From Mediterraneibacter glycyrrhizinilyticus (GTDB lineage Bacteria > Bacillota > Clostridia > Lachnospirales > Lachnospiraceae): a stretch of DNA of 64,000 nt. The DNA lies in assembly GCF_015560805.1 (NCBI RefSeq), contig NZ_JADMSO010000014.1:1-64000 (forward strand). Reading direction: 5' to 3'. The translations under genes and the position numbers were made by a program. Under the pieces are notes generated by a model that saw only the letters and a list, made by a program, of their open reading frames with translations, was not told the DNA's origin and did not search any database. Every line of letters starts with the position of its first letter. Positions within the stretch are counted from its first letter, which is position 1. Positions 4,658 to 37,918 of the stretch are shown piece after piece.

Positions 4658-4661
4658 TTAT

Positions 4662-8395: not shown

Positions 8396-8408
8396 GGAGG
8401 AACAGGGA

Positions 8409-9395: not shown

Positions 9396-9420
9396 TAAAA
9401 TAGGAACGACCTATTTATTA
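9393..9420 (+). other. Intercistronic hairpin before the binding-protein gene
   Basis: Arms taataaaatagg and cctatttatta pair over 11 bp around aacga. No T-run follows. Hairpins in this position commonly protect or process mRNA so that the binding protein is made in excess over the permeases; that role is inferred. Confidence 0.55.
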
Positions 9421-9454
9421 AAATTATTAAAAAAGAAAAATGGAGGAAAAGAAA

Positions 9455-10669: not shown

Positions 10670-10703
10670 TCGACACTGAAAATAAAGGAGGCAGTCTTCA
10701 GTT

Positions 10704-13435: not shown

Positions 13436-13460
13436 GCATAAAATATTTGTGAATGAAGAG

Positions 13461-13486
13461 ACAGCCACACCATATGGTGTGGCTGT
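13461..13486. repeat. Perfect 26-bp palindrome between GH3 and GH78
   Basis: The sequence acagccacaccat is followed by its exact reverse complement with no spacer. It lies between the GH3 stop and the GH78 ribosome binding site and is not followed by T-runs. It may be an mRNA processing or stabilising hairpin, or a protein-binding site. Confidence 0.75.
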
Positions 13487-13512
13487 TGAAATATAAAGAG
13501 GAGATAAATTCT

Positions 13513-16050: not shown

Positions 16051-17480
16051 AGCAAGCAGTGATGAATCCATATTTGCCGCTATATGAATATGTTCCAGAT
16101 GGAGAACCAAGAATTTTCGGCACACGTTTATACGTATATGGATCTCATGATTATGCAGGGGGAGAAAAAGGATTTTGTCCCGGAGATTATATGGTGTGGT
16201 CTGCTCCGCTGGACGATTTAAGTAATTGGGAGTGCGGAGGTGTTGCGTTTCCACGTAGTGATTGTCCGGAATTGACAGAGACAGATGCAATGGCTGCGCC
16301 GGATGTGGTGAAAGGACCGGGTGGACGCTATTATATGTATTGGAATACAAATGCACAGAAAGTATGCCGGGTAGCGGTGAGTGAGGTGCCGGAAGGTCCA
16401 TTTTCCTATTATGGAGAGGTTCGACGTGCAGATGGAACAATATATGATGATTTTAAAATGTTTGATCCGGGCGTTCTTGTAGATGATGACGGAAGTATAT
16501 ATTTGTTTACCGGGTTTTGTATGCCGGGACCTGTGCCGGAACGGTATAAAAATATGCCGTCCCCATTTGCGGAGACTAGTATCGGATTTGAGTTAGAAGA
16601 AGATATGCTGACTATAAAAAGGGGACCTGTTCCGATAATTCCCGGAGCCAATGTCAGTACGGGAACCGGGTTTGAAGGACACGGATTTTATGAAGCATCA
16701 AGTCCGAGAAAAATAAATGGAAAATATGTGATGGTATATTCGGGAGAAACAAGCCATGAATTATGCTATGCTGTATCAGATTCTCCGTTGGGAGTTTATA
16801 CATATAAGGGGGTTCTTGTCAGTAGCGCAGATATTGGGATACATGGAAATAAAAATCCGATTATGCCATATGGAAATGTGCATGGCGGGCTGGTACAAAT
16901 AAAAGAGGACTGGTATATTTTTTATCATAGGCAGACCCATGCAATTGAATGTTGCAGACAAGGGTGTGCAGAAAAACTTTCTGTACGAGAAGATGGATCT
17001 TTTCAACAGGCAGAAATTACAAGCTGTGGGTTGAATGACGGACCGATTCCAACAAAGGGAACTTATAATGCATGTTATTGCTGCTGTCTGAAGGGAAGTT
17101 TGTTTTCACAAGAAAAATTAAATGTTCGGGAAAATCGACGTGAAAGTGAAGGATATATTTATGAAGAATCTACGGGGATAGATGAGACAAAATCTTTGCA
17201 TTATCTGGCAAACTTAAAAAAAGATACCGTTGTAGGATTTAAATATTTTGAATGGCAGAACGTTCGAAATATTGCAGTGAAATTACGTGGCGAAGGAAAT
17301 GTTTCGATAGAGGTGCATATAGACTCTCCGGAAGGAAAATGTATTGGAAAGACGAAGGTGAATCTTTCGTGTTTGTGGGAAGACTATGATATTGATATAC
17401 AGAATATAGATGGAGTTCATGCGTTATATTTTGTTTTTGAAGCAGAAAAGATAGTAGAGTTTATGGAATTTACATTTTAA
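16047..17480 (+). CDS. GH43 glycosidase with C-terminal beta-sandwich (paralogue 1)
   Basis: A GH43 five-bladed propeller (about 1-330) is followed by a sandwich domain resembling CBM6 modules (about 345-475). The catalytic base is the Asp in EYVPDGEPRIF, the modulating Asp lies in KMFDPGVLVDDDG, and the acid Glu is in GFYEASSPRK. The likely activity is alpha-L-arabinofuranosidase or beta-xylosidase/galactosidase; the family is too broad to choose. The start was set at ATG 16047 (ATGA overlap with the GH78 stop), nine bases after GGAGG; the ATG at 16041 would be too close. It is the last gene of the ABC operon, and a paralogue lies at 27785-29299. Confidence 0.9.
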   Translation: MKQAVMNPYLPLYEYVPDGEPRIFGTRLYVYGSHDYAGGEKGFCPGDYMVWSAPLDDLSNWECGGVAFPRSDCPELTETDAMAAPDVVKGPGGRYYMYWNTNAQKVCRVAVSEVPEGPFSYYGEVRRADGTIYDDFKMFDPGVLVDDDGSIYLFTGFCMPGPVPERYKNMPSPFAETSIGFELEEDMLTIKRGPVPIIPGANVSTGTGFEGHGFYEASSPRKINGKYVMVYSGETSHELCYAVSDSPLGVYTYKGVLVSSADIGIHGNKNPIMPYGNVHGGLVQIKEDWYIFYHRQTHAIECCRQGCAEKLSVREDGSFQQAEITSCGLNDGPIPTKGTYNACYCCCLKGSLFSQEKLNVRENRRESEGYIYEESTGIDETKSLHYLANLKKDTVVGFKYFEWQNVRNIAVKLRGEGNVSIEVHIDSPEGKCIGKTKVNLSCLWEDYDIDIQNIDGVHALYFVFEAEKIVEFMEFTF

Positions 17481-19970: not shown

Positions 19971-20031
19971 AAAAAATGTCGGGTTTGTACGAAAAAAATC
20001 CGTGTTTCTTTTTCAGAATCTTTTTTACAAT
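19971..20031 (+). promoter_or_regulatory. Activator-type promoter of GH78-GH43-GH2, GTCGG motif
   Basis: An A-tract followed by TGTCGG (19971-19982) and a second A-tract half-site about 20 bp on (19991-20002) precede a TACAAT -10 at 20026-20031. The -35 position is poor. From TCGG (19979) to the -10 is 47 bp, as at the two sister promoters (26212/26259 and 30769/30816). A separate short inverted repeat, ccggca/tgccgg, at 19893-19906 lies nearer the divergent GH3 gene. Confidence 0.7.
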
Positions 20032-20079
20032 AGTATTAACAAAAGCAGTGAGAAGAGAAAAACGGCAATGGAGGGAAAA

Positions 20080-22656
20080 ATGAAATTAAAAAATTTACGG
20101 GTAAACAATATCGAACATCCGCTTGGATTTCAGATTATGCCACTTAGTTTTTCATGGACAGTGGAAGAAGCCGGAGAAGCAAAAGAACAACAGTCCGCCA
20201 GAATCCGGATTTATGAAAATGTGGAAACAGAAGCGGATATGGAAGGAAAAAAGGCTGTATATGACAGCGGTGAAGTGACGGACGCAGACAGTTTGGATTA
20301 CTCGGTAAATGTAGAATTGAAACCGAGAACACGGTATCAATGGTCGGTAGAAGTGACCGCGGATACAAAGGAACAGGTATCTGCCGAAAGCTGGTTTGAA
20401 ACGGGAAAGACAGACGAGGTATGGGAAGGACAGTGGATCGCACCGGAACAACAAACTTCATCCGTGATTTTGCGAAAAACATTTGTTTATGACGGAACAG
20501 CCAAATCGGCAAGGCTGTATATGTGTGGACTCGGCGTTTATGAATGCTATATCAACGGGAAAAAAGCAGGAGATGAATATCTTGCGCCGGGGTATCACTC
20601 CTACGATTTTCATTTACAGGCACAGACCTATGATGTGTCTGATCTTTTGAAAGAAGGGGAAAATGAGATCGAAATCTGGCTTGGAGAAGGCTGGTTTAAA
20701 GGAAGGCTTGGGTTTGACGGCGGATTCACCGATATTTACGGAGACAAATTATATGCGATCGCAGAACTTTATGCAGGCGAGGAGTGCCTTGTAAAGACCG
20801 ATACGACATGGGAAGTTTTAGAATCTCCGATCCGTTTTAATAATATTTATGACGGCGAAGTGTATGATGCCAGACAACAGAAATGTCGGATTGCCGGGAC
20901 AAAGCTTTTACAGGAAAGTCCGAAAGAATGTGGAGAACTTTCCGATCGATATAGCCTTCCGATCAAGACGAAAGAAATCTTTTCCGTAAAAGAGGTTCTT
21001 CATACGCCATCGGGAGATACGGTTTTGGATTTCGGACAGAATCTGACCGGATGGGTGGAATTTGACTGCCGGATTCCGGAGGGAAAAGGGATACGCCTGA
21101 CTGCATCGGAAATTATGCAGGATCAAGAATTTTACCATGAAAATCTGCGGACTGCAAAAACGGAATTTCTGTATCTTTCCGATGGAAAAGAAGCCCATGT
21201 CAGACCGCATTTTACCTTTTACGGATTTCGTTATATGAAGGCGGAAGTGGTTCAGGAAGTTCGCAATGGAGAAGACGTAACATTGCGTTGTGAAGAGACG
21301 CTTTCCGATGAAGAATGGAAGACACAGTTTCAGGCAGTGCACCTTCGCAGTGATTTTGATCAGATCGGATGGATTGAAACGGGTGATCAGAAAGTCAATC
21401 AATTATTCTCCAATGCATTGTGGGGACAGAAAGGAAACTTCTTAGACGTTCCGACAGATTGTCCGCAGAGAGATGAGCGGCTTGGATGGACCGGAGATGC
21501 ACAAGTATTTTCCGAGACCGCATGTTTCAATATGTACATGCCGGCATTCTATCGGAAATATATGTGGGATATGCGTGCCGAACAGAGCATTCTGGACGGC
21601 GCAGTGCCAAATGTAGTTCCGCGTTTAAAGCGTGGCATGGTAGCCGAGTACGGGGCGTGTCCATGGGCAGATGCGGGCGTGATCATTCCTTGGAACGTTT
21701 ATTGTCATTATGGAAGTAAAACATTATTGGCAGAAATGTATCCGGGAATGAAGGCGTGGGTTGATTATCAGCGCAAGCAAGAAGAAGCAGAGGGCGGTCT
21801 GCATTTGATCAAAGGCGGATTCCATTTTGCAGATTGGCTGGCGTTGGATAATGAGCAGCCGGGACCGTTTGGAGCGACGGATCCGCTTTATATCGCAAGC
21901 GCCTATTATTTCCGGTGTACGAAGATCATTGCAGACGCAGCAGAAATACTCGGATATGAAGAAGCGCCGGAATACAAAAAACTTGCAGAAGAAATCAAAA
22001 AAGCAATCCGTGCGACGTATTTTGATGGAAGCGGAGCATGTTGTTCTAAGACACAGACCGGGGCGGCAATTGCGATCGTGTTCGGACTGATCGAAGATAC
22101 GGCACAGGAGGAAGGCGATCGGCTGCATCAGCGAGTGGCAGAAAATAACGGACATTTGAACACCGGATTTGTGGGAACACCGCTTCTTTGTCCGGCATTG
22201 ACGAAAACCGGACATCATAAAACCGCGGTGGACCTGTTATTGAACGAAGATTATCCAAGTTGGCTTTATAGTGTAAATCTCGGAGCGACAACCATATGGG
22301 AGCGTTGGAATTCCGTGCTTCCGGATGGAAGGATGAATCCGGAAGGAATGAACAGTCTGAATCATTATTCTTATGGAAGTATCGAAGCATGGATGTACGG
22401 AGATGTGGCAGGAATCCGGGAAGCCGAACCGGGATTTCGAAAAGCAGTGATCAAACCGAATCCGGATGCAAGATTGAAATACGTGGATTGTAAAATGGAG
22501 ACTGCGGCAGGAATTTATGAAAGCCACTGGAAGTATGAGGAAGACGGTTCGGTAACATATCGTTTCCATGTTCCGTTTGGGGTGAAGGCGTTGATCTGTC
22601 TGCCGGACGGAAGAACAGAAACAGTCGCAGCCGGAGATTATATATATTGCAGTTGA
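20080..22656 (+). CDS. GH78 alpha-L-rhamnosidase (paralogue 2)
   Basis: The 858-residue enzyme has the same domain order as paralogue 1: N-terminal Fn3-like (EHPLGFQIMPLSFSW), sandwich with LYMCGLGVYECYINGKK, DTVLDFGQNLTGW, catalytic (alpha/alpha)6 barrel and C-terminal sandwich. The acid Glu466 lies in DCPQRDERLGWTGD and the base Glu741 in ATTIWERWNS. No signal peptide is present. The start is ATG 20080 directly after GGAGGG. It is the first gene of an operon with GH43 and GH2 genes, so rhamnose removal is probably the first or a parallel step in dismantling one substrate. Confidence 0.95.
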   Translation: MKLKNLRVNNIEHPLGFQIMPLSFSWTVEEAGEAKEQQSARIRIYENVETEADMEGKKAVYDSGEVTDADSLDYSVNVELKPRTRYQWSVEVTADTKEQVSAESWFETGKTDEVWEGQWIAPEQQTSSVILRKTFVYDGTAKSARLYMCGLGVYECYINGKKAGDEYLAPGYHSYDFHLQAQTYDVSDLLKEGENEIEIWLGEGWFKGRLGFDGGFTDIYGDKLYAIAELYAGEECLVKTDTTWEVLESPIRFNNIYDGEVYDARQQKCRIAGTKLLQESPKECGELSDRYSLPIKTKEIFSVKEVLHTPSGDTVLDFGQNLTGWVEFDCRIPEGKGIRLTASEIMQDQEFYHENLRTAKTEFLYLSDGKEAHVRPHFTFYGFRYMKAEVVQEVRNGEDVTLRCEETLSDEEWKTQFQAVHLRSDFDQIGWIETGDQKVNQLFSNALWGQKGNFLDVPTDCPQRDERLGWTGDAQVFSETACFNMYMPAFYRKYMWDMRAEQSILDGAVPNVVPRLKRGMVAEYGACPWADAGVIIPWNVYCHYGSKTLLAEMYPGMKAWVDYQRKQEEAEGGLHLIKGGFHFADWLALDNEQPGPFGATDPLYIASAYYFRCTKIIADAAEILGYEEAPEYKKLAEEIKKAIRATYFDGSGACCSKTQTGAAIAIVFGLIEDTAQEEGDRLHQRVAENNGHLNTGFVGTPLLCPALTKTGHHKTAVDLLLNEDYPSWLYSVNLGATTIWERWNSVLPDGRMNPEGMNSLNHYSYGSIEAWMYGDVAGIREAEPGFRKAVIKPNPDARLKYVDCKMETAAGIYESHWKYEEDGSVTYRFHVPFGVKALICLPDGRTETVAAGDYIYCS

Positions 22657-22685
22657 TGAAATTGTTGGCGAAAAGGAGAAGAGAG

Positions 22686-23579
22686 ATGAACAGAGAAAAG
22701 GTAAATATCAGAGATCCGTACATTTTGCTTCATGAAGGAATCTATTATCTGTATGGAACAAGAAGTGCGACTTGTTGGGGAGAGGCAGATGGATTTGACT
22801 GTTATAAAAGTGAAGATCTGGAAAATTGGGAAGGACCGATTGAAATTTTTCACAAACCGGAAGGCTTTTTCGCAGATCGGAATTATTGGGCGCCGGAGTG
22901 CTATTTTGTAAACGGATATTTTTATCTCGTGACAACGTTTGGAAGCGTAGAAGGAAAGAAAGGGATTTATATTCTTCGTTCCGAACAACCGGAAGGTCCT
23001 TTTGAATTATACAGTGAACGGCTTACGCCGGAAATGTGGTCTTGTATTGACGGAACATTGTATTGGGAAAATGAAACCCCATATTTGATCTTTTCTCATT
23101 CATTTGAAGATTCACCAAGCGGAGATATGTGTCTGATCCCGCTAGATCCTACATTGCAAAAGACGGCAGGAGAACCGAAATTATTGTTCGAGGCGGCAGA
23201 AGCCAAATGGGCACATCCGGTTCCGTTTGCAAAGATAGAGTTCGGAATGGATGGAGATGTGTATTTTACAGACGGACCGTGTGTATTCCGGGCAGAAAAT
23301 GAGTTGTATATGTTCTGGTCGAGTTGGGGAACCAACGGATATGCCGTTGGCGTGGCAAAGTCAGAAACCGGTGAAGTGAACGGACCGTGGATCCAGCAGG
23401 AAACGCCGGTATTCCCGGAAAACGGCGGTCATGGAATGGTATTTCGCGATAAAGAAGAAAATTTACAGTTTGTACTGCACTATCCAAATGATAAATATAA
23501 GGAACATCCTGAGTTTCGGAAAATAATCAATAAAAACGGACAGCTTCAACTGGAAAAGGAAAAGAAAGCTGAAAGATAA
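22686..23579 (+). CDS. GH43-like glycosidase, single-domain
   Basis: This 297-residue protein is a single propeller without an accessory domain. It starts with the GH43 signature NIRDPYILLHEGIYYLYG (base Asp in RDP) and then has NYWAPECYFVNGYFYLV and SCIDGTLYWENETPYLIF. The acid Glu cannot be assigned with certainty. Such short enzymes are annotated as arabinosidases or related exo-glycosidases. The start at 22686 follows AAGGAG; in-frame ATGs further upstream lie inside or next to the end of the GH78 gene. It is co-transcribed between GH78 and GH2. Confidence 0.82.
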   Translation: MNREKVNIRDPYILLHEGIYYLYGTRSATCWGEADGFDCYKSEDLENWEGPIEIFHKPEGFFADRNYWAPECYFVNGYFYLVTTFGSVEGKKGIYILRSEQPEGPFELYSERLTPEMWSCIDGTLYWENETPYLIFSHSFEDSPSGDMCLIPLDPTLQKTAGEPKLLFEAAEAKWAHPVPFAKIEFGMDGDVYFTDGPCVFRAENELYMFWSSWGTNGYAVGVAKSETGEVNGPWIQQETPVFPENGGHGMVFRDKEENLQFVLHYPNDKYKEHPEFRKIINKNGQLQLEKEKKAER

Positions 23580-23633
23580 GAAAGTAAACAATGGAATAGA
23601 AAGTAATAAAAGAGAAAGAAAGGAATTAAGAAC

Positions 23634-26063
23634 ATGAGAATTCAAAAATGGAATGAAAACTGGAAATTTTGGGCGGATAAAGATTCCTTTGCCCTCGTAT
23701 GGAACGTACCGGAGAATGCACGGACGATCAACCTTCCTCATGATGCGATGATCGAAGAAAAAGCATATGCGGAGAGTGGAAATCACGGAAATACCGGATT
23801 CCGTGACGGAGGCGTTTATACCTATGTAAAACATCTGTTTGTAGGAGAAGATGCAAAAGAAAAAACAATGATGCTGAAATTTGAAGGTATTTACATGAAC
23901 GCTATGGTTTATGTAAATGAACAGCTTGCGGCAAAAAATATGTTTGGCTATACAACATTTTATGTACCGCTGAATGATTTTCTCCGTTACGGACAGGAAA
24001 ATGAGATCCGTGTACAGGTGCGGAATAATAATATGACAAACAGCCGTTGGTATTCCGGAACCGGAATTTACCGTGACGTTTATTTGTTAGAATCCGGACT
24101 GGATTACCTTGTGCCGGAAGGCGTACAGATCAAGTGCGAGACGGCGGACGAAGAATATGCGGTTCTTCAGATTCGCAGTGAAGTGAAGAATCGTAAACCG
24201 ATTCCTGCAGAAATGACATTACATACTGTTATTCGTAACGAAAAAGGTGACGCTGTGGGAGAAGAAAAGACCGTGGCTGTCTTATTTGATCAGGAACAGC
24301 GTGAACTGACACAGCGGATCGTGATCGGGAAACCGGAATTCTGGTCCGCAGAAACTCCGATTTTATATACTTGTGAAGCTACATTGATGATGGGAGAGGA
24401 AGTTGTAGATGCGCAGACAGAGAAATTCGGAATCCGTACAATGTCATTGGATGCAAAACGGGGACTTCGTATCAACGGCGAGTCGGTAAAACTTCGCGGA
24501 GCATGTATTCACCATGACAGCGGACTTCTCGGAGCCGCAACATTTGAAGATGCACAGTATCGGCAGGTTGCAAAATTAAAAGAAGCCGGATTTAATGCGA
24601 TCCGTATGTCTCACCATCCGATGGCTCCGGCAATGCTGCGCGCTTGTGATGAGTTGGGAATGTATGTAATGGACGAAACATTTGATATGTGGGATCGATG
24701 CAAATCCGATCTGGATTATGGTCTGTACTTCCGTGAGTGGTGGGAAAAAGATGTGACTGCAATGGTACGCAAAGACTACAATCATCCGTCTGTGATCTTG
24801 TATTCGGTAGGAAATGAGATTCCGGAGATCGGAACAGATCATGGTGCAAAGACTTGCCATGAATTGTGTGAAAAAATCAAAGCATTGGATGAGACTCGTT
24901 ATACGTTGGCGTCCATCAACGGTGTATTTGCAGCCGGAGATCAGGTAGACAATATCGTAGCAGACGTATCGGCAGATCTTTGCGCCAAAGGCGAACTGGA
25001 TGGAAATGTCAACGACTTTATGACTTTGATGGATGACCATATGGATGAGATCGTCGTACATCATGCGATTACAGAGCGTTTGGAGAAAGCGTGTGCATCT
25101 ACGGATATTGCAGGATATAACTACATGACGGCACGTTATGAGATGGATGGAGAATTATATCCGAACCGTGTCATTGTCGGAAGTGAAACGTATCCGCCGG
25201 AGATCGCAAGAAACTGGGATCTGGTAGAGAAACTTTCTCATGTGATCGGTGATTTTACATGGACCGGTTGGGATTACATCGGAGAAGCCGGAGTTGGCGT
25301 TCCGGCTTATCAGTGGGGCGAAGGCGGCTTCGGCGCGGGATTCCCATGTCAGTTGGCATATTCCGGAGATATTGATATTACAGGATTTAGAAGACCTGCA
25401 TCCTATTTCCGTGAAGTTGTATTTGGTCTGAGAAAAGATCCATATATTACAGTTCAGAACCCGCACAAATTCGGACAGCATCTGATTAAGACACCGTGGG
25501 TGATCAGCGACAGTGTTTCTACATGGAACTGGTCCGGTTGTGAAGGAAATCCGGCGATTGTTGAAATTTATTCTCCGGGAGAAGAAGTGGAACTCTTTGT
25601 AAATGGTGTGTCACAAGGGAAAAAAGCTGCCGGAAAAAATGCCGGATTCCGTACATTATTTGAAGTGGTTTATGAGCCGGGAACTGTGGAAGCAGTCGCT
25701 TATGAGAATGGTCAGGAAATCGGACGCATGGAACTTCAGAGCGCGGAAAGCGAAGTGCATCTGGAATTAGAAATAGAAGGAGGAAGAGCAAAAGAACTTT
25801 CCTATATTCATGTATGGCTGAAAGATTCACAAGGAAGAGTCATGACAGATTGTGATAAGAAATTAACGGCAGAAGTGACAGGAGACGCTGATTTGGCAGG
25901 ATTTGGAAGTGGTAATCCGAAACCGGAGCACAATTATAATGAGGGAATTACGGAAACGTTCCATGGTCATGCACTTTTGATCTTGAGAAAATCTGAGGGA
26001 ACAGAATCTTGTCAGGTAAAAATCAAATCTGAAGACGGATTAAGTGTGGAAGCATCTTTTTAA
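23634..26063 (+). CDS. GH2 beta-galactosidase/beta-glucuronidase family enzyme
   Basis: The 809-residue protein has the GH2 order: sugar-binding jelly roll (about 1-160, ending SRWYSGTGIYRDVYL), immunoglobulin-like domain, and a barrel with acid/base Glu395 (YSVGNEIPE) and nucleophile Glu518 (VGSETYPP). Two C-terminal domains follow, including a DUF4982-like stretch (about 620-690) and a last Ig-like fold. The glucuronidase NxK motif was not seen, so beta-galactosidase or another neutral beta-glycosidase is more likely. There is no signal peptide. It ends the GH78-GH43-GH2 operon; a weak inverted repeat (taagatg/catctta) follows the stop. Confidence 0.92.
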   Translation: MRIQKWNENWKFWADKDSFALVWNVPENARTINLPHDAMIEEKAYAESGNHGNTGFRDGGVYTYVKHLFVGEDAKEKTMMLKFEGIYMNAMVYVNEQLAAKNMFGYTTFYVPLNDFLRYGQENEIRVQVRNNNMTNSRWYSGTGIYRDVYLLESGLDYLVPEGVQIKCETADEEYAVLQIRSEVKNRKPIPAEMTLHTVIRNEKGDAVGEEKTVAVLFDQEQRELTQRIVIGKPEFWSAETPILYTCEATLMMGEEVVDAQTEKFGIRTMSLDAKRGLRINGESVKLRGACIHHDSGLLGAATFEDAQYRQVAKLKEAGFNAIRMSHHPMAPAMLRACDELGMYVMDETFDMWDRCKSDLDYGLYFREWWEKDVTAMVRKDYNHPSVILYSVGNEIPEIGTDHGAKTCHELCEKIKALDETRYTLASINGVFAAGDQVDNIVADVSADLCAKGELDGNVNDFMTLMDDHMDEIVVHHAITERLEKACASTDIAGYNYMTARYEMDGELYPNRVIVGSETYPPEIARNWDLVEKLSHVIGDFTWTGWDYIGEAGVGVPAYQWGEGGFGAGFPCQLAYSGDIDITGFRRPASYFREVVFGLRKDPYITVQNPHKFGQHLIKTPWVISDSVSTWNWSGCEGNPAIVEIYSPGEEVELFVNGVSQGKKAAGKNAGFRTLFEVVYEPGTVEAVAYENGQEIGRMELQSAESEVHLELEIEGGRAKELSYIHVWLKDSQGRVMTDCDKKLTAEVTGDADLAGFGSGNPKPEHNYNEGITETFHGHALLILRKSEGTESCQVKIKSEDGLSVEASF

Positions 26064-26302
26064 GATGTCGCAAATGACCTTGCCGGATGTCATCTTAGAG
26101 ACTGTTTTACAAGTGGCGCACATGCTATGATGGCTTTAAGTTGAGGGCAAATAAAAAATGTCGGCTTCATCTGAAAAAAAGACGGATGAAAAAGTATCGT
26201 CTTAAAAAATGTCGGATTTGAGGTAATATATAACATGGAAATTGCCCTCGGCATTCGGTAAACTAGAGATAGTTTAAAGAGAACGAAAAGGAGAGAGAGA
26301 AA
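26064..26302 (+). promoter_or_regulatory. Promoter of the GPH symporter gene with repeated GTCGG sites
   Basis: Two copies of AAAAAATGTCGG lie at 26153-26164 and 26204-26215. Between them is a degenerate copy, AAAAAAAGACGG, at 26174-26185, placed 21 bp after the first, the two-turn spacing typical of AraC half-sites. The -10 is TAAACT at 26259-26264, exactly 47 bp from the TCGG at 26212. No good -35 is present. The 90 bases before the first site hold only the short inverted repeat that may end the GH2 mRNA. Confidence 0.7.
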
Positions 26303-27697
26303 ATGGCAAATGAAAAAACAGTGAGTCAGAACGGCTCAAAGGACCATGTAAGTACCGCGTTTAAGTGGTTCCATGCAACATCTGTAAACGGTGGAGCAAT
26401 GTTGATCGCGGCAGTTCTTGCAAGTTACTTGTCTGTATATATGACAGATACATTGATGATCCCGGCAGCAACCGCTTCCCTGATCATGTTTATTTCTACA
26501 TTGTGGGATGCGATCAATGACCCGATGATGGGAGTCATCGCAGACCGGACACATACACGTTGGGGACGTTATCGCCCTTATATGTTCGCAGCTCCGATCT
26601 TGTTGACATTCTTCTCCATCATGGTATGGGTTGACTGGGGATTTGAGTCTGTAACGGTAAAAGCAGTTTACGTTTTAATTATGTATATCGGATATGGAAT
26701 GACTGTTACGATGTACACAATGCCGCAGATGGCAATCCTTCCGGCAGCAGTAAGAGACAATGAACAGAGAAATATGATCATTACACTTGGCGCCGGATGC
26801 TGTGCATTTGTATTTACGATCGGAAACACATTTACATTGAACATTACAGGATTCTTTGAGAGTCTCGGATTCAGCAACGGATATGTACCGTTGATGGCAA
26901 TCTGTGGTGTGCTTGCATTTATTTCCTTCTGGGGATTGTTCTTCACATCCAAAGGACAGGAGAAATATCTCCAGCCGGCAGAAAAAGGAAATCCGTTAAA
27001 AGCAATTGCAACCATTTTGAAATACAAAGAAGTTTATCCGAACTTGGTTGCATGGATCATGGCGTCTATGGGATACGGAATGATGTTCTCCACATCTGTA
27101 TACTACATGATGTATTATTATGAAAGACCTGACCTGATCAGCGTATACATGGGAGTTATTTCTATCGGAGCGATGGTTTCCATGATGGTATTGATGCCGA
27201 TCGTTCTGAAAATCTTCAAGACAGGACAGAAAGCGTTGATCGTATCACAGGTCGTATCTTGTGCTTGTTATGTACTGTTGTTCTTCACAGGTAAAATGAA
27301 CTTTACATATTGCTGTGTGATCACATTTATCTCTACATGTTTCGCAGCTATGCAGAATGCACTTGTAAATGTACTTGTAAACGATACAATCGACTTCATT
27401 CAGTTAAAAGAAGGAAAGTCTGCAAACGGTGTGATCGCTTCTATCAAAGGATTTGCACAGAAATGTGGTAACACAGTTGTTAGTTCCGGTATCCTTGCAG
27501 TACTTGCAGCTTCCGGATATGTGGCAGGTGCGATCGGACAGCAGCCGGACAGCGCAATGTTCGCATTGAACTTCTTGAAATTCGGAGCTCCGACATTGAC
27601 AGGTATCATCTTGATCATCTGTGTTGCAAAGAACCCGATGGCAAAATATGCAAAACAGATTGAAGAAATGAAAGCGAAAATGAACGCAGCAGAATAA
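26303..27697 (+). CDS. GPH-family sugar:cation symporter (MelB/XynB-type)
   Basis: This 464-residue membrane carrier of the glycoside-pentoside-hexuronide:cation symporter family has twelve predicted hydrophobic segments. The family signature is plain: WDAINDPMMGVIADRTHTRWGRYRPY (about 72-97), with the paired Asp residues that bind the co-ion in MelB-like carriers. It should import a glycoside or short oligosaccharide with Na+ or H+. It has GGAGAGAG before the ATG and its own GTCGG-type promoter. A GH43 enzyme follows, so the imported sugar probably carries a GH43-labile linkage. Confidence 0.92.
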   Translation: MANEKTVSQNGSKDHVSTAFKWFHATSVNGGAMLIAAVLASYLSVYMTDTLMIPAATASLIMFISTLWDAINDPMMGVIADRTHTRWGRYRPYMFAAPILLTFFSIMVWVDWGFESVTVKAVYVLIMYIGYGMTVTMYTMPQMAILPAAVRDNEQRNMIITLGAGCCAFVFTIGNTFTLNITGFFESLGFSNGYVPLMAICGVLAFISFWGLFFTSKGQEKYLQPAEKGNPLKAIATILKYKEVYPNLVAWIMASMGYGMMFSTSVYYMMYYYERPDLISVYMGVISIGAMVSMMVLMPIVLKIFKTGQKALIVSQVVSCACYVLLFFTGKMNFTYCCVITFISTCFAAMQNALVNVLVNDTIDFIQLKEGKSANGVIASIKGFAQKCGNTVVSSGILAVLAASGYVAGAIGQQPDSAMFALNFLKFGAPTLTGIILIICVAKNPMAKYAKQIEEMKAKMNAAE

Positions 27698-27711
27698 AGA
27701 ATAGTAAAAGA

Positions 27712-27762
27712 AAAACTGTCGAATTTGCTCAAGGGAGGGGGAGCAGATCCGGCAGTTTTTTT
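27712..27762 (+). terminator. Terminator between symporter and GH43 genes
   Basis: Arms aaaaactgtcgaatttgctc and gagcagatccggcagttttt pair at 17 of 20 positions around a purine loop, and the 3' arm ends in seven T. It lies inside an otherwise co-directional gene pair, so it may reduce, not block, expression of the GH43 gene. No separate GTCGG promoter is visible for that gene. Confidence 0.82.
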
Positions 27763-27784
27763 GATAGAATAGGAGGAAAAGAGG

Positions 27785-29299
27785 ATGAGCAAACATTTAG
27801 GATTGAATCCGTATTTACCGTTTTGGGAGACCGTTCCGGACGGAGAACCGCATGTATTTGACGGAAGAATTTATATTTACGGAAGCCACGACAAGCGAAA
27901 CGGAACTTCTTTTTGTGAGGACGATTATGTGTGCTGGAGCGCGCCGGTAGATGATCTTGGAAACTGGAAATACGAGGGCGTCATTTATAAAAAAACACAG
28001 GATCCGATCAATGGAGCGCCATATGACAAAGAGATGCCGGAGTATGAACCCTCCTTTTTCGGAGCGGAAACAAGATTGCTTTATGCGCCGGATGTGACAA
28101 AAGGACCGGACGGCAGATATTATCTTTATTATGCGCTGGACACGGTAAATGTGATTTCTGTGGCAGTTTGTGATACTCCGGCAGGAGAATATGAATTTTT
28201 AGACTATGTGAGAAGAGCAGACGGGACGATTCCGGAAGTGGGACGGTGGTTTGATCCGGCAATACTTTGTGAAGAAAGCGGCAATTACCTGTACTATGGA
28301 TTTTGCCCGCCGATGCGCTTTCCGGGAATGGAAGAGTTAGACATTCCGGGAGCGATGATGGTAAAACTTTCGGATGATATGCACACCATTATCAGTGAAC
28401 CTGTATGCGTGGCAAATGGAATCGATACAGCGAAAGGAACGGCTTATGAAGCACATCCGTTTTTTGAAGCGTCCAGCATCCGTCATTTTGGGGACTGGTA
28501 TTATTTTGTGTATTCCAGTTTGCAAGGGCATGAACTTTGCTATGGAATGGCAAAAACACCGGAAGGTCCGTTTGAATATAAGGGTGTGATCGTATCCAAC
28601 GGAGATATTGGATATGAAGGAAATACACTTCCGGTCAATTACACAGGAAATAACCATGGCGGACTTGTTGAGGTGGAAGGTGCGTATTACATTTTCTGGC
28701 ATCGCCATACACATGGAACTGCATTTTCCAGACAGGGATGTGCGGATCGGGTTGTGATCTGTGAAGACGGAACGATTCCGCAGATCGAGATTACAAGCTG
28801 TGGTTTGAATGACGGAGCGCTTCCGGCAAGCGGACAGTATTCGGCGTATATTGCCTGTCATCTGACGGAAGGAGATCGAGAAAAAGTCGGACAGGTGATC
28901 ATGGCAGGTCCGGGCGAGGCTGTACCGGAACTTCCGGAAGAAATGCCGTATATTACAGAAGAGGTTCGAAATGACGATGCGGTATGTGATGAAGCGACAT
29001 TGACGAAAGAAGAAAATCTGTATCCTTATATTTGCAATATGCGAAAAGGCGCTTTGGCAGGATTTAAATATTTTGCTTTTTCCGGAAATGAGACGAAGAT
29101 CGGACTGACACTCAGAGGAGAAGGCACGATGGAAGTTTTATTAGATACTGCCGGGGAAAAAGTAGTCGGAAATTGTGAAAAATCCGGTGAAAATTGGGAG
29201 CAAGTGTGGATAACTCTTCCGAAGATCGAAGGAAAACAGGCATTGTATTTCCGCGTTGCAGAAGGTAAGGTTGACTTTGCAGAGTTTGAAATCAGATAG
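27785..29299 (+). CDS. GH43 glycosidase with C-terminal beta-sandwich (paralogue 2)
   Basis: This 504-residue enzyme is a paralogue of the protein at 16047-17480, with the same order: propeller (about 1-350) and a CBM6-like sandwich. The base Asp is in ETVPDGEPHVF, the modulator in RWFDPAILCEESG and the acid Glu in HPFFEASSIRH. It carries an insert around residues 65-85 (NGAPYDKEMPEYEPSFF) not present in the paralogue. It is cytoplasmic. GGAGG lies upstream of the ATG. It probably acts on the sugar brought in by the GPH carrier. Confidence 0.9.
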   Translation: MSKHLGLNPYLPFWETVPDGEPHVFDGRIYIYGSHDKRNGTSFCEDDYVCWSAPVDDLGNWKYEGVIYKKTQDPINGAPYDKEMPEYEPSFFGAETRLLYAPDVTKGPDGRYYLYYALDTVNVISVAVCDTPAGEYEFLDYVRRADGTIPEVGRWFDPAILCEESGNYLYYGFCPPMRFPGMEELDIPGAMMVKLSDDMHTIISEPVCVANGIDTAKGTAYEAHPFFEASSIRHFGDWYYFVYSSLQGHELCYGMAKTPEGPFEYKGVIVSNGDIGYEGNTLPVNYTGNNHGGLVEVEGAYYIFWHRHTHGTAFSRQGCADRVVICEDGTIPQIEITSCGLNDGALPASGQYSAYIACHLTEGDREKVGQVIMAGPGEAVPELPEEMPYITEEVRNDDAVCDEATLTKEENLYPYICNMRKGALAGFKYFAFSGNETKIGLTLRGEGTMEVLLDTAGEKVVGNCEKSGENWEQVWITLPKIEGKQALYFRVAEGKVDFAEFEIR

Positions 29300-29318
29300 A
29301 AGCGTTAGTATACATTAG

Positions 29319-29389
29319 AAAAGAGGAATTTTTATAGAAAACCAAAAGTGTAAAACAGATGGACTCTATGAAAAATTCCTCTTTTATTT
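29319..29389. terminator. Bidirectional terminator, GH43 / AraC
   Basis: Arms aaaagaggaatttttataga (29319-29338) and the near-complementary tctatgaaaaattcctcttt (29365-29384) pair around a 26-base loop, with T-rich flanks on both strands. It ends the GH43 gene and the convergent AraC gene. Confidence 0.85.
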
Positions 29390-29391
29390 TA

Positions 29392-30531
29392 TTAGTTTGT
29401 CTTTTCGTTTTTGACTTCAAACGGAACGAAGGCTTCTTCTGTATGGCTGTTTTGTTTGCGGTATTCCTGCGGTGACATTTTATAAGTGCTGCGGAATACT
29501 CTTGAAAAATGATCCGCAGAGTTATAGCCTACTTTTTCGGCAATCTCGCCGATCTTCAGATTGGTATTGGTTAAGTAGTCGATCGCTTCGGCGAGCCGGA
29601 GCCGCTTGATCAATCCGGTGAAATTGTGTCCGGTATTCTGTTTGATCAGTGTGCATAGATGCGGTTCACTGTAATGAAACAGTTCGGCAAGAGAGGCTAA
29701 TGTCAAAGTCTGATAATTGTGCTGGATATACTGTAAAACAAGTGAGAAGTCGGCTCCCATCTGGTAGTCGTAAAATTGTAAAGTTTTGCTGTAATTTCGG
29801 AGTAAGTTGGAAAACAGCAGATTGATCCAACTGATACAGCAAGCATTGCTGTAACTGTCGTTTTTATAACTTTCGCCCATTGCATTATGAATGATCTGTT
29901 TTAACCACTTATTATTTTCTGAAAAAAACAGGAGATAATTGGCATGGGAATCATCCTGTAAAATGGTTCGGAAAAAATAGGAAAGCAGGTCTTTCCGTGA
30001 CAGAAGAGAAAAGAATGTCGTATCAAACGTGCTTTTTCGTAACATAATGCAGAACACGGTGGAGTCATCATCGATGACAAGATCGTGTTCGGAAGACGGC
30101 GCAATGATACAAAGCTCTCCTTCCTGCATGGTGCGTTTGCTTTTTTCAAAGACAAACGTGCAGCTTCCGCTGGCAACATAATTAATTTCAAAATAATTAT
30201 GTATGTGAGGCGCGGGACGGGTATAGCGGGGGTGACGGATGATAAAAACATCGCCGGAGTTTGGAAAAATATCTGTTTCTTTTACTTTTGGCGTAATTGA
30301 AATTTGCGGATTCAGTTCCAAAGGAAGTTGATCGATGATCTTATTGAACGCATCGTCGTCCATGTCTCCGAACATTTCAGAAGTCAGCATAGGATCCGGA
30401 GGCGTTTCCGAGAGAAGTCCTTTTCGGTAAAGGTAATCAGCCATTTCCGGAAACTGCATTCGACTGCCTGTTCGGAAAAAGTAATCTTTCATATGTTGTT
30501 GAAATTCACCATAGGTGATGTAGTAAGCCAT
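29392..30531 (-). CDS. AraC-family regulator with cupin sensor, likely activator of the glycoside operons
   Basis: The 379-residue protein has a cupin-type ligand domain in the middle (RPAPHIHNYFEINYVASGSC, then EGELCIIAPSSEHDLV). Its AraC DNA-binding domain has helix-turn-helix 1 SLAELFHYSEPHLCTLIKQ, helix-turn-helix 2 IGEIAEKVGYNSADHFSRVF and the end motif SPQEYRK. A leading block of about 90 residues before the cupin is also present. GAGGTTAA precedes the ATG. It is divergent from the GH3-GH78 operon, and the GTCGG site between them is repeated at two other operons, making it the best candidate for the shared activator. The truncated AraC gene at 3920-4657 is a paralogue. Confidence 0.92.
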   Translation of the reverse strand: MAYYITYGEFQQHMKDYFFRTGSRMQFPEMADYLYRKGLLSETPPDPMLTSEMFGDMDDDAFNKIIDQLPLELNPQISITPKVKETDIFPNSGDVFIIRHPRYTRPAPHIHNYFEINYVASGSCTFVFEKSKRTMQEGELCIIAPSSEHDLVIDDDSTVFCIMLRKSTFDTTFFSLLSRKDLLSYFFRTILQDDSHANYLLFFSENNKWLKQIIHNAMGESYKNDSYSNACCISWINLLFSNLLRNYSKTLQFYDYQMGADFSLVLQYIQHNYQTLTLASLAELFHYSEPHLCTLIKQNTGHNFTGLIKRLRLAEAIDYLTNTNLKIGEIAEKVGYNSADHFSRVFRSTYKMSPQEYRKQNSHTEEAFVPFEVKNEKTN

Positions 30532-30885
30532 AGTTTAACCTCAATGCCAGATTTTTTGCCTGAGCAATCTATTTCGTTTTTATGTTTCAATGCCATCAGT
30601 GAACAAAAAAGCAAATGTATTCTTGTCTGCTGATGGTATTTATTATAAAGAAAATTTGATTTTCATGCAACTTACCCTGTGGAAAAAGTAAAGGTTTTAT
30701 GTGTTATATCGTGAAGCGGATGTTAGTGTCAGTGCACATTGACGTTATGAGCAAGTGGTGAAAATACGTCGGATTCTGAAAAAAAAAGTACATGGCAGTT
30801 TAGAACGAGATTTTGTAAAATGAAATCAACCTGAAAAGTATGAGAGTTACGAAAAATTTATGGAAATGAGAAGGAGTATAAGGAT
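30532..30885 (+). promoter_or_regulatory. Divergent AraC / GH3-GH78 promoter with GTCGG motif
   Basis: The motif AAAATACGTCGG (30761-30772) is followed by an A-tract half-site (30779-30787) and a TAAAAT -10 at 30816-30821. TCGG to -10 is 47 bp, as at the other two promoters. Nearer the AraC gene an inverted repeat, atgccatcag (30590-30599) with ctgatggtat (30630-30639), could serve autoregulation. A near-palindrome, gtcagtg/cattgac, at 30728-30743 resembles the extragenic repeat arms found at 38.9 and 52.5 kb. Confidence 0.68.
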
Positions 30886-32574
30886 ATGATTCAGTACAAA
30901 GAAAATCCGTTTTACTTAACAGAAGAGCAAGTGCAGTGGGTAGAGAGTACCTATGATTCTATGAGTCTGGAGGAAAAAATCGGACAGCTTTTTTGCCCGA
31001 TCGTATTTACGAAAGATGAAAAAGAATTGAAAGAACTGGTGGAGACAAAGCATATCGGAGGAATGCTTTATCGTGAAGGACCGGGAGAGGAATTAAGACA
31101 GTCTCATAAAATCTTGCAGGATGCTTCGAGAATTCCGCTTTTAACAGCTTCGAATCTGGAATACGGCGGAAACGGATCGGCAATAGAAGGAACGTATTAC
31201 GGAAGAGAAATGCTTGCCGCAGCGACCGGAGATGTGGAGAGAGCATATCAGCTTGGAAAGGTAAGTTGCAGCGAGGGAGCGGCAGTCGGTGTGAACTGGT
31301 CTTTTGCTCCGGTTGTGGATCTGGATCTGAACTATCACAATCCGATCACTAATGTGCGTACCTTCGGTTCCAATCTTCAGACGGTGATCGATATGGGAAA
31401 AGCATATATCCGCGGTGCAAAAGAAGAAGGCGTGGCGACAAGTGTAAAACATTTCCCGGGAGACGGTGTGGATGAACGTGACCAGCATCTTGTGACAAGT
31501 GTGAACGCTCTTTCCTGCAAAGAGTGGAATGAAAGTTATGGAAAAATTTACAAAGAAATGATCGAAGCAGGTACATTGACTGTAATGGCAGCTCATATTG
31601 CATTACCGGCATATGAAGAATATTTTGATCAGAAACCGTGCGAGCGGATTCTTCCGGCAACTTTATCGGAAAATCTGTTAAAGAAATTATTGAGAGAACA
31701 GCTTGGATTTAACGGTTTGATCGTAACGGATGCAACACCGATGGTTGGTTTCTGTTCTGCAATGGACAGAGCAACGGCAGTACCGCTTAGTATTGAAAAT
31801 GGCTGCGATATGTTCTTATTTAATCGAAATATGGAAGAAGATTTCCGGTTGATGAGAGAAGGATATGAAAAAGGAATTTTATCGGACGCTCGTTTGGAAG
31901 AAGCAGTGAAGCGTATTCTGGCAACAAAAGCAGCGATGCATTTGCCGGAGAAACAGGAAAAAGGACAGCTTGTACCGGATGCATCGGCATTGGATATTTT
32001 GAACTGCGAGACGTATGATCGTTGGGCAAAGGAATGTGCGGATGAAGGGGTAACGCTTGTAAAAGATATACAAAAACTTCTTCCGATCGATCCGAAAAAA
32101 CACAAAAGAGTGCTGCTTGAACTGATGGGTGATTTCCCGTCGAACAAACGAGTATGCGAATCATTTGTACGGGAACTGGAAGCGCGCGGATTTGAAGTGA
32201 CGGTGTATGAACCGGAAGGATTTGAAGTGATGGAAGATTCCGTGGAAAGCTTTAAGAGCCGTTACGATCTGATCTTCTATGTAGGAAATATCGAAACAGC
32301 ATCGAACAAAACCGTATCTCGTCTGAACTGGCATACGATGTTTGGTCTTGGAAATAACATGCCGTGGATGGTGCATGAAATGCCGGCGTTGTTTGTCAGC
32401 GTAGGAAATCCGTATCATTTGCTGGATGCGCCGATGATCAAAACATTTGTCAACGGATATTGCAATTCCGAATATGTGATCCATGCTGTGGTTGAGAAAT
32501 TGTGCGGAGACAGCGAGTTTAAGGGAAAATCTCCGATCGATCCATTCTGCGGAAAACTGGATCTGAAATTATAG
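30886..32574 (+). CDS. Short NagZ-like GH3 glycosidase (paralogue 2)
   Basis: This 562-residue paralogue of the enzyme at 11708-13435 has the same two-domain design. The nucleophile is Asp282 in LIVTDATPMVG, and the acid-base loop reads KHFPGDGVDERDQH. Both copies share EEKIGQLF near the N terminus and the odd C-terminal half ending in a KTFVNGYCNSEY-like segment. There is no signal peptide. The start follows AAGGAG. It heads an operon of GH78, two MBL hydrolases, a beta-phosphoglucomutase-like HAD and an esterase, so its product probably feeds cytoplasmic sugar catabolism. Confidence 0.88.
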   Translation: MIQYKENPFYLTEEQVQWVESTYDSMSLEEKIGQLFCPIVFTKDEKELKELVETKHIGGMLYREGPGEELRQSHKILQDASRIPLLTASNLEYGGNGSAIEGTYYGREMLAAATGDVERAYQLGKVSCSEGAAVGVNWSFAPVVDLDLNYHNPITNVRTFGSNLQTVIDMGKAYIRGAKEEGVATSVKHFPGDGVDERDQHLVTSVNALSCKEWNESYGKIYKEMIEAGTLTVMAAHIALPAYEEYFDQKPCERILPATLSENLLKKLLREQLGFNGLIVTDATPMVGFCSAMDRATAVPLSIENGCDMFLFNRNMEEDFRLMREGYEKGILSDARLEEAVKRILATKAAMHLPEKQEKGQLVPDASALDILNCETYDRWAKECADEGVTLVKDIQKLLPIDPKKHKRVLLELMGDFPSNKRVCESFVRELEARGFEVTVYEPEGFEVMEDSVESFKSRYDLIFYVGNIETASNKTVSRLNWHTMFGLGNNMPWMVHEMPALFVSVGNPYHLLDAPMIKTFVNGYCNSEYVIHAVVEKLCGDSEFKGKSPIDPFCGKLDLKL

Positions 32575-32612
32575 GTCAGATTTGAGATTGTAAGCGAAAA
32601 GGAGAAACATAA

Positions 32613-35423
32613 ATGCGAATTACAGAAACAAAAATAAACGGAATCCAGAACCCGATGGGATTTACATATGATTTTCTGCTTTGTTCTTGGAAAGTGGAAG
32701 ATACCGAAAGTAAAAAACAAGTCCATGCGAAAATAGAAGTCAGTGAGGATGCAGATTTTACCCGGATTTTGTGGGAAAAAGAAGGGGAAGATCTGAAACA
32801 GTCGGGAGAGAAGATCAATCTGGAATTAAAACCGCGCACAACCTATTATTATCGTGTGACAGTAACCGGAGATCAAGGCGATACGGCTGTCAGTGATCTT
32901 GCCTATTTTGAAACCGGAAAAATGCAGGAAGCATGGGAGGCGGATTGGATCGCTCCACAGAAGGCGGATGCGTTCCATCCGGTGATCGGCACGAAGTTTG
33001 CCGCAGTGAAACCTGTTAAGAGAGCAAGACTTTATACATCCGGTGTGGGCGTGTTTGAGGTTTATCTCAATGGTAAAAAATTAGGAGAAGAATTTTTGAC
33101 TCCATACGTCAACAATTATGAGGCGAATATACAAGTACTGACATTTCCGGTAGAAGAACTTTGCAGCGGAAATGGGGAAGCCGGAGAAAACAGTCTGGAA
33201 TTTTTGCTTGGAAAAGGCTGGTATATGGGTGAGTTCGGTCTGGATGGTCAGAAAGAAAATTACGGAGATCGGATGGCTGTGATCGCAGAACTTCATTTGG
33301 AATATGAAGACGGAACGACAGAGTGTATCTGTACCGATCAAAACTGGAAATATTGTGGTTCCGATATTGAAGATTCCGGTATTTATTTTGGAGAAGACCT
33401 GAACCGTCTGCTTTGGGAAGAAAAAGAAAATCCGTGGAAACCGGTGGAAGTTATTGCTGATCCGGAAGCGGAGGAAGGAACAAAAAATCTTGCAAAATCA
33501 CATTTGATGGATCGCTTAAGTCTTCCGGTTGTAGCAAAAGAACAAATTTCAGTAAAAGAGATCCTTCACACTCCGGCAGGAGAAACCGTTTTGGATATGG
33601 GACAGAATTTTGCAGGATTTGTGGAATTTGATGCGGATCTTCCGAAAGGAACGAAAGTGGTACTTGATTTCGGAGAGATTTTACAGAACGATAATTTTTA
33701 TCGGGAAAACTATCGGGAAGCCAGATCGCAGTTTGTCTATATCTCCGGTGGAAAACCGGAAACCGTGTGTCCTCATTTTACATTTTTCGGTTTCCGTTAT
33801 GTCCGTGTGACCGGATGGGCAGGGGAATTGAAGAAAGAAGCATTCCGAGGAAACGTACTGTATTCGGATTTGCAGAGAACGGGATATATCCATACAAATC
33901 ACGAAAAAATTAATCGTTTGTATGAAAATACGGTTTGGGGACTGAAATCGAATTTCCTCGATATGCCGACCGATTGTCCGCAGAGAAATGAACGTCTTGG
34001 ATGGACCGGAGATGCGCAGGTATTTGCTCCGACGGCAAGTTACCATATGGACACCCGTGCATTTTTCCATAAGTTTGTAAAAGATCTTCGGGATGAACAG
34101 AAGATGATCGATGGCGCTGTGCCGAATTATGTGCCGAATATCGGACATAAAGAGGATGCCGGAAGCGTATGGGGAGATATTGCAACATTTCTTCCGTATA
34201 CACTGTATACTTATTTCGGAAATCAGGAAGAAATGAATTACTGCTATCCGTTGATGAAAGACTGGGTAGATTACATTGACAGAAAAGACGGAGAACGAGG
34301 CGAAAAGCACTATCTGTTCGATTTCGGATTCCATTTTGGCGATTGGCTGGCATTAGACGGCGCGACACCGACAAGTTTTAAAGGAAGCACAGAAGATACT
34401 TATATTGCTTCGGTCTATTATTGTGCGTCTGTTCGTAAGACAGCAGAAATTGCCGAGACATTGGGATTGACAGAAGATGCAGCGCATTATCGGAAGTTGG
34501 AGGAAAAGATCAGACAGGCAGTGTTAGCAGAATATTTTACTCCGAACGGAAGACTGGCAGTGACAACGCAGGCTGCATATGTGATCGCATTAAAATTCGG
34601 AATCTATGTGGATCGAGAATATCTGATCGAACAGTTTAAGAAGAAATTACAGGCAGATGGAAATCAGATTAAATGTGGATTTGTCGGCGCACCGCTTCTT
34701 TGTACCGTTTTAGCAGAAGCAGGTTTGTATGAACTGGCATATGATTTCTTACTGAAAGAAGGATTCCCAAGTTGGTTATACAGTGTGAATTTGGGAGCAA
34801 CAACGATCTGGGAACGTTGGAATTCGGTGCTTCCGGACGGAACGATCAGTCCGACTGGAATGAATTCTCTGAATCATTATTCGTATGGTTCTGTGATGGA
34901 ATTTATGTATGCGTATGCAGCAGGAATCCGTCCGGCAGAGCCGGGATTTGCGCGGGCGGTCATTGCACCGCATCCGGATGTGCGTCTGCCGAAAATGGAA
35001 TGCAGTTATGATTCTGTAAACGGAAAATATACATGTAACTTTGAAATTTGTTCTGATGGAATGTTGCATGTGGTTGTGGAAATTCCATTCAACTGCGAGG
35101 CGGAAGTAGAGTTGCCGGGATATAAAGAAGGCAAACAGATTTTGAGCGCCGGAAGATATGAATTTGATTATGTACCGGAAACCGATTATTGTCATCCGTA
35201 CGGAGAAAAGACAACGTTGGCAAGAGTCGGAAAAGACCCAAAAGCGCTTGCTGTTTTGGGAAAATATACACCGGCATTGGCAGGAATGTCACAGTCGGAT
35301 GACGCAGAATTTTTGTATAACACATTGGAAGAAATCAGTTATCTCGGATTCCTTCCGTTTGATCCGGAAAAGCTTCAGCAGGCGATCAAAGAATTAAAGG
35401 AAATCAACGTATTAGAAGCATAA
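32613..35423 (+). CDS. GH78 alpha-L-rhamnosidase with extra C-terminal domain (paralogue 3)
   Basis: This is the longest of the three rhamnosidases (936 residues). The domain order matches the others up to about residue 850; a helical tail of about 80 residues follows (from YCHPYGEKTTLARVG). The acid motif reads DCPQRNERLGWTGD, with Asn459 where the paralogues have Asp, next to the acid Glu460. The base is Glu734 in ATTIWERWNS. The beta-sandwich block LYTSGVGVFEVYLNGKK and DTVLDMGQ-like ETVLDMGQNFAGF are present. It is cytoplasmic. It lies 38 bp after the GH3 gene behind AAGGAG and is clearly in the same operon. Confidence 0.94.
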   Translation: MRITETKINGIQNPMGFTYDFLLCSWKVEDTESKKQVHAKIEVSEDADFTRILWEKEGEDLKQSGEKINLELKPRTTYYYRVTVTGDQGDTAVSDLAYFETGKMQEAWEADWIAPQKADAFHPVIGTKFAAVKPVKRARLYTSGVGVFEVYLNGKKLGEEFLTPYVNNYEANIQVLTFPVEELCSGNGEAGENSLEFLLGKGWYMGEFGLDGQKENYGDRMAVIAELHLEYEDGTTECICTDQNWKYCGSDIEDSGIYFGEDLNRLLWEEKENPWKPVEVIADPEAEEGTKNLAKSHLMDRLSLPVVAKEQISVKEILHTPAGETVLDMGQNFAGFVEFDADLPKGTKVVLDFGEILQNDNFYRENYREARSQFVYISGGKPETVCPHFTFFGFRYVRVTGWAGELKKEAFRGNVLYSDLQRTGYIHTNHEKINRLYENTVWGLKSNFLDMPTDCPQRNERLGWTGDAQVFAPTASYHMDTRAFFHKFVKDLRDEQKMIDGAVPNYVPNIGHKEDAGSVWGDIATFLPYTLYTYFGNQEEMNYCYPLMKDWVDYIDRKDGERGEKHYLFDFGFHFGDWLALDGATPTSFKGSTEDTYIASVYYCASVRKTAEIAETLGLTEDAAHYRKLEEKIRQAVLAEYFTPNGRLAVTTQAAYVIALKFGIYVDREYLIEQFKKKLQADGNQIKCGFVGAPLLCTVLAEAGLYELAYDFLLKEGFPSWLYSVNLGATTIWERWNSVLPDGTISPTGMNSLNHYSYGSVMEFMYAYAAGIRPAEPGFARAVIAPHPDVRLPKMECSYDSVNGKYTCNFEICSDGMLHVVVEIPFNCEAEVELPGYKEGKQILSAGRYEFDYVPETDYCHPYGEKTTLARVGKDPKALAVLGKYTPALAGMSQSDDAEFLYNTLEEISYLGFLPFDPEKLQQAIKELKEINVLEA

Positions 35424-35461
35424 ACGTTAGAAACATAAAAGGGCTTAGAAGTATAAAAGGC
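35411..35461 (+). repeat. Tandem repeat of the GH78 gene end with stop codons
   Basis: Three direct copies of TTAGAA followed by RYATAAA start at about 35411, 35426 and 35444. The first is the end of the GH78 frame (L-E-A-stop). The repeats look like slippage or duplication of the gene's last codons. Confidence 0.6.
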
Positions 35462-35494
35462 GATGTAAAATATTGCAGACAAGGAGGAAGGACA

Positions 35495-36352: not shown

Positions 36353-36358
36353 ACGAGA

Positions 36359-36991: not shown

Positions 36992-37054
36992 ATCAATCAG
37001 AGGGAACATTTTACAATTAATAATAAAAAAGTAAGTGTGTGGGAGGAAAAAATT

Positions 37055-37906: not shown

Positions 37907-37918
37907 GAGGCTACCGGT

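Follow-up and report, generated by a model that had tools for sequence, protein, structure and literature searches.

A conserved two-half-site promoter element and a candidate AraC-type activator of three glycoside hydrolase operons in Mediterraneibacter glycyrrhizinilyticus

Genes at the locus

The stretch of DNA analysed here (the window, 64,000 nucleotides from M. glycyrrhizinilyticus) carries three predicted glycoside hydrolase operons, probably for the breakdown of plant sugars that contain rhamnose, and, between the second and the third, a gene for an AraC-type regulator, called AraC29392 below:

20080–26063, forward strand: predicted operon 1, with GH78 (20080–22656), GH43 (22647–23579) and GH2 (23634–26063), assigned by Pfam, with small or overlapping gaps
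26303–29299, forward strand: predicted operon 2, with a GPH/MFS_2 sugar transporter (26303–27697) and GH43 (27785–29299), assigned by Pfam and NCBIfam
29392–30531, reverse strand: AraC29392, 379 aa, with an N-terminal extension, an AraC_binding/cupin domain (residues 99–169) and HTH_18 (residues 281–360)
30886–38890, forward strand: predicted operon 3, with GH3 (30886), GH78 (32613), an MBL fold protein (35495), beta-phosphoglucomutase (36359), another MBL fold protein (37037) and an esterase (37919–38890), assigned by Pfam and NCBIfam

The protein families suggest that the GPH transporter imports a rhamnose-bearing glycoside or oligosaccharide which is then hydrolysed by the GH78, GH3, GH2 and GH43 enzymes and also de-esterified. 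The first GH78 gene starts at the ATG at 20080, downstream of its promoter, and not at the mechanically assigned GTG at 20002.

AraC29392 contains both domains that define the AraC/XylS family, a C-terminal double HTH domain (PF12833, E = 3e-22, residues 281–360, above the cut-off) and a cupin-type ligand-binding domain (PF02311, E = 1.4e-9, 38.2 bits against a cut-off of 21.1). Its best NCBIfam match is RhaS, and its scores lie below the equivalog cut-offs of RhaS (77.3 against 288), AraC (59.6 against 208), RhaR (53.9 against 363) and MelR (38.0 against 253). Residues 1–90 form a conserved extension ahead of the cupin domain (TGSRMQFPEMxDYLxRKG) with zero matches in Pfam. An inverted repeat, ATGCCATCAG...CTGATGGTAT, is found upstream of the AraC gene (window positions 30580–30640).

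Architecture of the control sites

Each operon is preceded by a candidate activator site and a -10 hexamer, and the second promoter has an additional upstream copy:

19971–20005, forward strand: site 1, distal half-site AAAAAATGTCGG (19971–19982) and a degenerate proximal half-site (about 19992–20005); matrix score 33.0
20026–20031, forward strand: -10 hexamer TACAAT of site 1, 47 bp from the T of TCGG; predicted start A 20038
26153–26185, forward strand: upstream copy, TGTCGG (26159–26164) and AGACGG (26180–26185), a 21-bp direct repeat
26204–26238, forward strand: site 2, AAAAAATGTCGG followed by the proximal half-site TAACATGG; matrix score 40.8
26259–26264, forward strand: -10 hexamer TAAACT of site 2, at 47 bp; predicted start A 26271
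30761–30795, forward strand: site 3, AAAATACGTCGG followed by GTACATGG, in the AraC-GH3 divergent region; matrix score 43.1
30816–30821, forward strand: -10 hexamer TAAAAT of site 3, at 47 bp; predicted start A 30828

The pattern AAAAWAYGTCGG-N43-TANNNT fits all three promoters. An initial annotation had placed an A-tract followed by GTCGG at 19971, 26153, 26204 and 30761, which is exactly where the copies lie, and its figure of 47 bp between the T of TCGG and the -10 hexamer also proves exact at 20026, 26259 and 30816. Its description of the promoters as lacking a good -35 holds as well, the best matches to TTGACA (with spacers of 16–18 bp) reaching 2, 4 and 4 of 6 positions. The second half-site, which had been reported 20–21 bp downstream, is real and occurs at exactly 21 bp; at site 1 it is degenerate and reads ATCCGTGT. 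The upstream copy at 26153 begins with AAAAAATGTCGG, lies 51 bp upstream of site 2 and has no -10 at 47 bp.

In an alignment of 43 sites on their -10 hexamers (-12 to -7), the element comprises a first A-tract at -67 to -62, a strong distal box YGTCGG (TGTCGG) at -61 to -56, a second A-tract at -46 to -41 and a weaker proximal box ACATGG at -38 to -33, which overlaps the -35 region. Shifted by 21 bp, the first A-tract matches the second, mixed A/T column included, and in the upstream copies TGTCGG is followed exactly 21 bp further on by AGACGG (in the window) or CGCCGG (in the congeners G007 and G008). The 21-bp register rests on these A-tracts and upstream copies, since similarity by offset alone is slightly higher at 24 than at 21 and the proximal and distal half-sites have different sequences; the sites contain a direct repeat of about 21 bp whose register is less certain at the promoters themselves. 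The predicted +1 is an A in 44 of 60 sites and the -1 a pyrimidine in 41 of 60, a base for which the sites had not been selected, and this preference supports real use of these -10 boxes.

No such site precedes the ABC transporter-GH3-GH78-GH43 operon (6890–17480), from which another AraC gene (5435–6655) diverges. The motif had been described as absent there, and the best matrix score ahead of 6890 is indeed 1.5, while the three sites score 33 to 43. Because the site is missing and an AraC gene faces the operon, a separate regulator is likely, and the ABC operon probably forms a parallel system that has an operator of its own.

Rarity in the genome

The distal 12-mer alone is close to chance in the window, where 20 matches stand against 13 expected when up to 2 mismatches are allowed, and common in the genome (58 matches at 1 mismatch, 47 for the reversed pattern), and it was dropped as evidence. 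An extended pattern, consisting of the A-tract, YGTCGG, the second A-tract, MCRTK and TANNNT at fixed distances, was found with up to 3 mismatches at only three sites in the 3.0-Mb genome, all of them in the window, and its reversed form had zero matches in the same genome. The strict pattern with 2 mismatches was rejected as too noisy, with the control about equal. Duplication of one promoter was rejected as the source of the likeness because box and -10 are separated by unconserved sequence and the genes that follow come from unrelated families.

Conservation among congeners and in other genera

Orthologues of AraC29392 with 65–66% identity are encoded by four congeners (G003, G004, G007 and G008), and a partial one by G001. 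The site lies ahead of the orthologous GH3 operon and of the GH43 gene in these four, and ahead of the GPH operon in all five, in every case with a -10 exactly 47 bp away. Six congeners that lack a close AraC orthologue gave zero pattern matches at 0–1 mismatch. One site at 47 bp in G006 was read as a chance occurrence; it lacks the ACRT half-site, the genome lacks the AraC and a better -10 is found elsewhere.

An alignment of five orthologues was used to gather about 40 true AraC29392 orthologues from Faecalicatena, Mediterraneibacter, Dorea, Konateibacter, Lachnotalea, Anaerobium, Scybalocola and further Lachnospiraceae. When sites were picked solely by the A-rich YGTCGG block, a TANNNT hexamer stood at 47 bp in 32 of 57, the next spacings reaching 7. 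Some loci are cut short where a MAG contig ends. A non-circular matrix, which covered the activator box in 35 columns and left out the -10, was trained on ten sites of the genus and then applied to 38 loci from other Lachnospiraceae genera, each encoding an AraC29392 orthologue, with a threshold just above the highest-scoring position in reversed sequence (0 of 1.25 million reversed positions reach it). It found 71 sites in 36 of the 38 loci; TANNNT lay exactly 47 bp away in 58 of them, as compared with 9 for the next best spacing and a mean of 1.9 for the rest, and controls with scrambled cores gave no such peak. A comparison of orthologous promoters had been proposed as a test that could refute the motif, and both the box and its 47-bp spacing turn out to be kept in congeners and in many other genera.

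The sites precede GPH, GH3, GH78, GH2, GH43 and esterase genes; the first downstream genes are mostly GPH transporters, short GH3 and GH78, then GH2, another GH3 and an esterase. The intergenic region divergent from AraC carries a site in many loci across genera, as expected for a local regulator of the AraC family. A few of these AraC-divergent sites have no -10 at 47 bp (in L168 and L171 it is at 46; in L181, L182 and L187–L189 none is there), and most of the loci concerned hold other sites with a -10 at 47 bp. L181, L182 and L187–L189 form one MAG group; there a TTGCCA/TATACT-like promoter for araC follows directly downstream of the AraC-proximal site, an arrangement that may point to autoregulation of araC.

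Co-occurrence with the regulator

In a sample of 397 genomes from across the family, 11 encode an AraC orthologue (called at E <= 1e-100), 7 carry the strict pattern and 6 have both, so that the pattern is present in 6 of 11 genomes with the AraC against 1 of 386 without it (Fisher p = 6e-10; the test treats genomes as independent, and nearly all come from different genera). The single match without the AraC, in G313, reads AAAAAATGTCGGGTATATTAAGCTACCCGACATTTTTTG and was taken as a terminator because it forms a hairpin with a T-run. The other 5 of the 11 genomes encode a more distant orthologue (48–60% identity) and lack the strict pattern; relaxed sites with GATAAT at 47 bp are present in comparable loci (L193 and L194). 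The neighbouring AraC had been named as the natural candidate for the motif; occurrence of the site tracks its orthologue, which makes it the probable binding protein.

Proposed mechanism and alternative explanations

Computation on these genomes yields the motif, the spacing of its half-sites, the spacing to the -10, their conservation and the co-occurrence with AraC. The recurrence of an equally spaced site in dozens of AraC-bearing relatives argues that the element is very probably the switch of AraC29392, and the whole very probably a local regulon of a class II AraC-type activator, with binding, activation and effector predicted from sequence. AraC29392 would bind a 35-bp site made of two head-to-tail half-sites with a 21-bp period, of which the distal (AAAAWA-YGTCGG, about -67 to -56) is strong and the proximal (AAAAWA-NNACATGG, about -46 to -33) weaker. 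With ligand bound and both half-sites occupied, its proximal subunit would contact RNA polymerase and substitute for the missing -35, the proposal being that the bound regulator replaces the -35 contact since the proximal half-site overlaps that position. Polymerase would thereby be recruited to the good -10, whose position is fixed at 47 bp beyond the T of TCGG, and GH78-GH43-GH2, GPH-GH43 and GH3-GH78-MBL-pgmB-MBL-esterase would be induced together when a rhamnose-containing glycoside or a breakdown product enters the cell. It is thus highly likely that AraC29392 is a local sugar-sensing activator that jointly switches on the three operons through this element. The proposal that they form one AraC-controlled regulon gains support from the genome, in which sites appear only at these three promoters.

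Binding by another regulator, for instance another AraC paralogue with AraC29392 as a bystander, is very improbable. In its favour, the genome has at least 5 AraC-like matches at E <= 1e-30, among them the remnant at 3920 and another, elsewhere, with 36% identity. Against it, G002, G009 and G010 possess many distant AraC paralogues, no orthologue and zero sites at 0–1 mismatch, the site co-occurs with the orthologue (the p value given above), and in a range of genera sites recur in the intergenic region that diverges from the orthologue itself. Repression is very improbable: a protein on the proximal half-site, which overlaps the -35, could block RNA polymerase, but promoters without a good -35 should be weak unaided, and the fixed 47-bp spacing to the -10 is expected for a polymerase contact and unneeded for a roadblock. 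That GTCGG after A-tracts with a loose -10 reflects chance or A-rich promoter bias would agree with the near-expected frequency of the 12-mer in the window, yet it is already refuted by the uniqueness of the sites in the whole genome, the peak at 47 bp in other genera and its absence from the scrambled-core controls.

The geometry had been thought to suit an AraC-type activator beside the -35, and the proximal half-site does overlap it; together with the lack of a good -35 and the fixed -10 spacing (47 bp, 58/71) this is the arrangement of a class II site. The I2 site of E. coli AraC spans -51 to -35 and overlaps the -35 (PMC11434276), and 21-bp direct repeats have been found for rhamnose regulators of the AraC family in other groups (PMC3870299), from which the layout here can be read as that of a class II AraC activator. 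For the transporter promoter, the copy at 26153 probably supplies a second dimer site. The distances of 30, 51 and 62 bp from upstream copies down to promoter sites correspond to about 3, 5 and 6 turns of the helix. A tentative, rather doubtful idea is that these copies are helically phased high-affinity repeats on which the regulator waits until induction, when it would pass to the weak promoter-proximal site; this would be a compact analogue, acting at short range, of the araO2-I1 loop.

Relation to known systems

AraC regulators are abundant beside the glycan loci of gut Firmicutes, and to our knowledge their operator motifs have rarely been defined. At the E. coli PBAD promoter, as in the site described here, the proximal half-site is the weaker one. 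Both also share head-to-tail half-sites with the proximal one over the -35 (araI1-araI2; PMC11434276), and AraC29392 resembles E. coli AraC in combining a cupin ligand domain with an AraC HTH. Unlike PBAD, the half-sites have another sequence and nothing here points to CRP or an O2-type loop; unlike E. coli AraC, AraC29392 has about 90 additional conserved residues at its N-terminus and the sub-cut-off AraC score noted above. RhaS and RhaR of E. coli, the former the best NCBIfam match, are likewise AraC-family sugar activators; their sites are inverted repeats of 17-bp half-sites (PMC3870299) whereas those here are direct repeats, and the RhaS score is far from its cut-off. RhaR of Bacillales, Bacteroides and Enterococcus (PMC3870299) controls rhamnose catabolism genes through other motifs, in contrast to the glycoside hydrolases and GPH transporter of this locus. 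A parallel in gene content is with the Gram-positive polysaccharide utilization loci of Roseburia and E. rectale, also Lachnospiraceae, which combine glycoside hydrolases, a transporter and an adjacent AraC; the consulted passages of that source describe no operator motif or promoter geometry for their AraC proteins (PMC5320581). An operator of this sequence was not found in the literature searched, whose coverage mostly leaves out subscription papers. The switch is of a known kind (AraC class II) and its motif is newly defined. A complete promoter code (two half-sites, spacing, -10 and start) is conserved across many Lachnospiraceae genera, and regulon members and transcription starts become predictable from sequence as a result; it would tie rhamnosidase, GH3, GH2, GH43, GPH transporter and esterases into one controlled pathway.

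Apparently truncated divergent pairs

Between 3920 and 5327 of the window, the C-terminal remnant of a second AraC paralogue (about 245 aa, reverse strand, 40–44% identical to AraC29392) abuts the 3' half of a GH43 gene (4695–5327, forward strand) near 4658, apparently because a deletion took away the promoter of a divergent pair together with the 5' ends of both genes. A similar junction occurs in the G001 MAG (locus L069, G001:C72, 3988–4059), where the orthologous AraC begins at residue 153, next to GH3 sequence from about residue 290 onward; either both genes of the divergent pair have lost their 5' ends, much as in the window, or the contig is misassembled.
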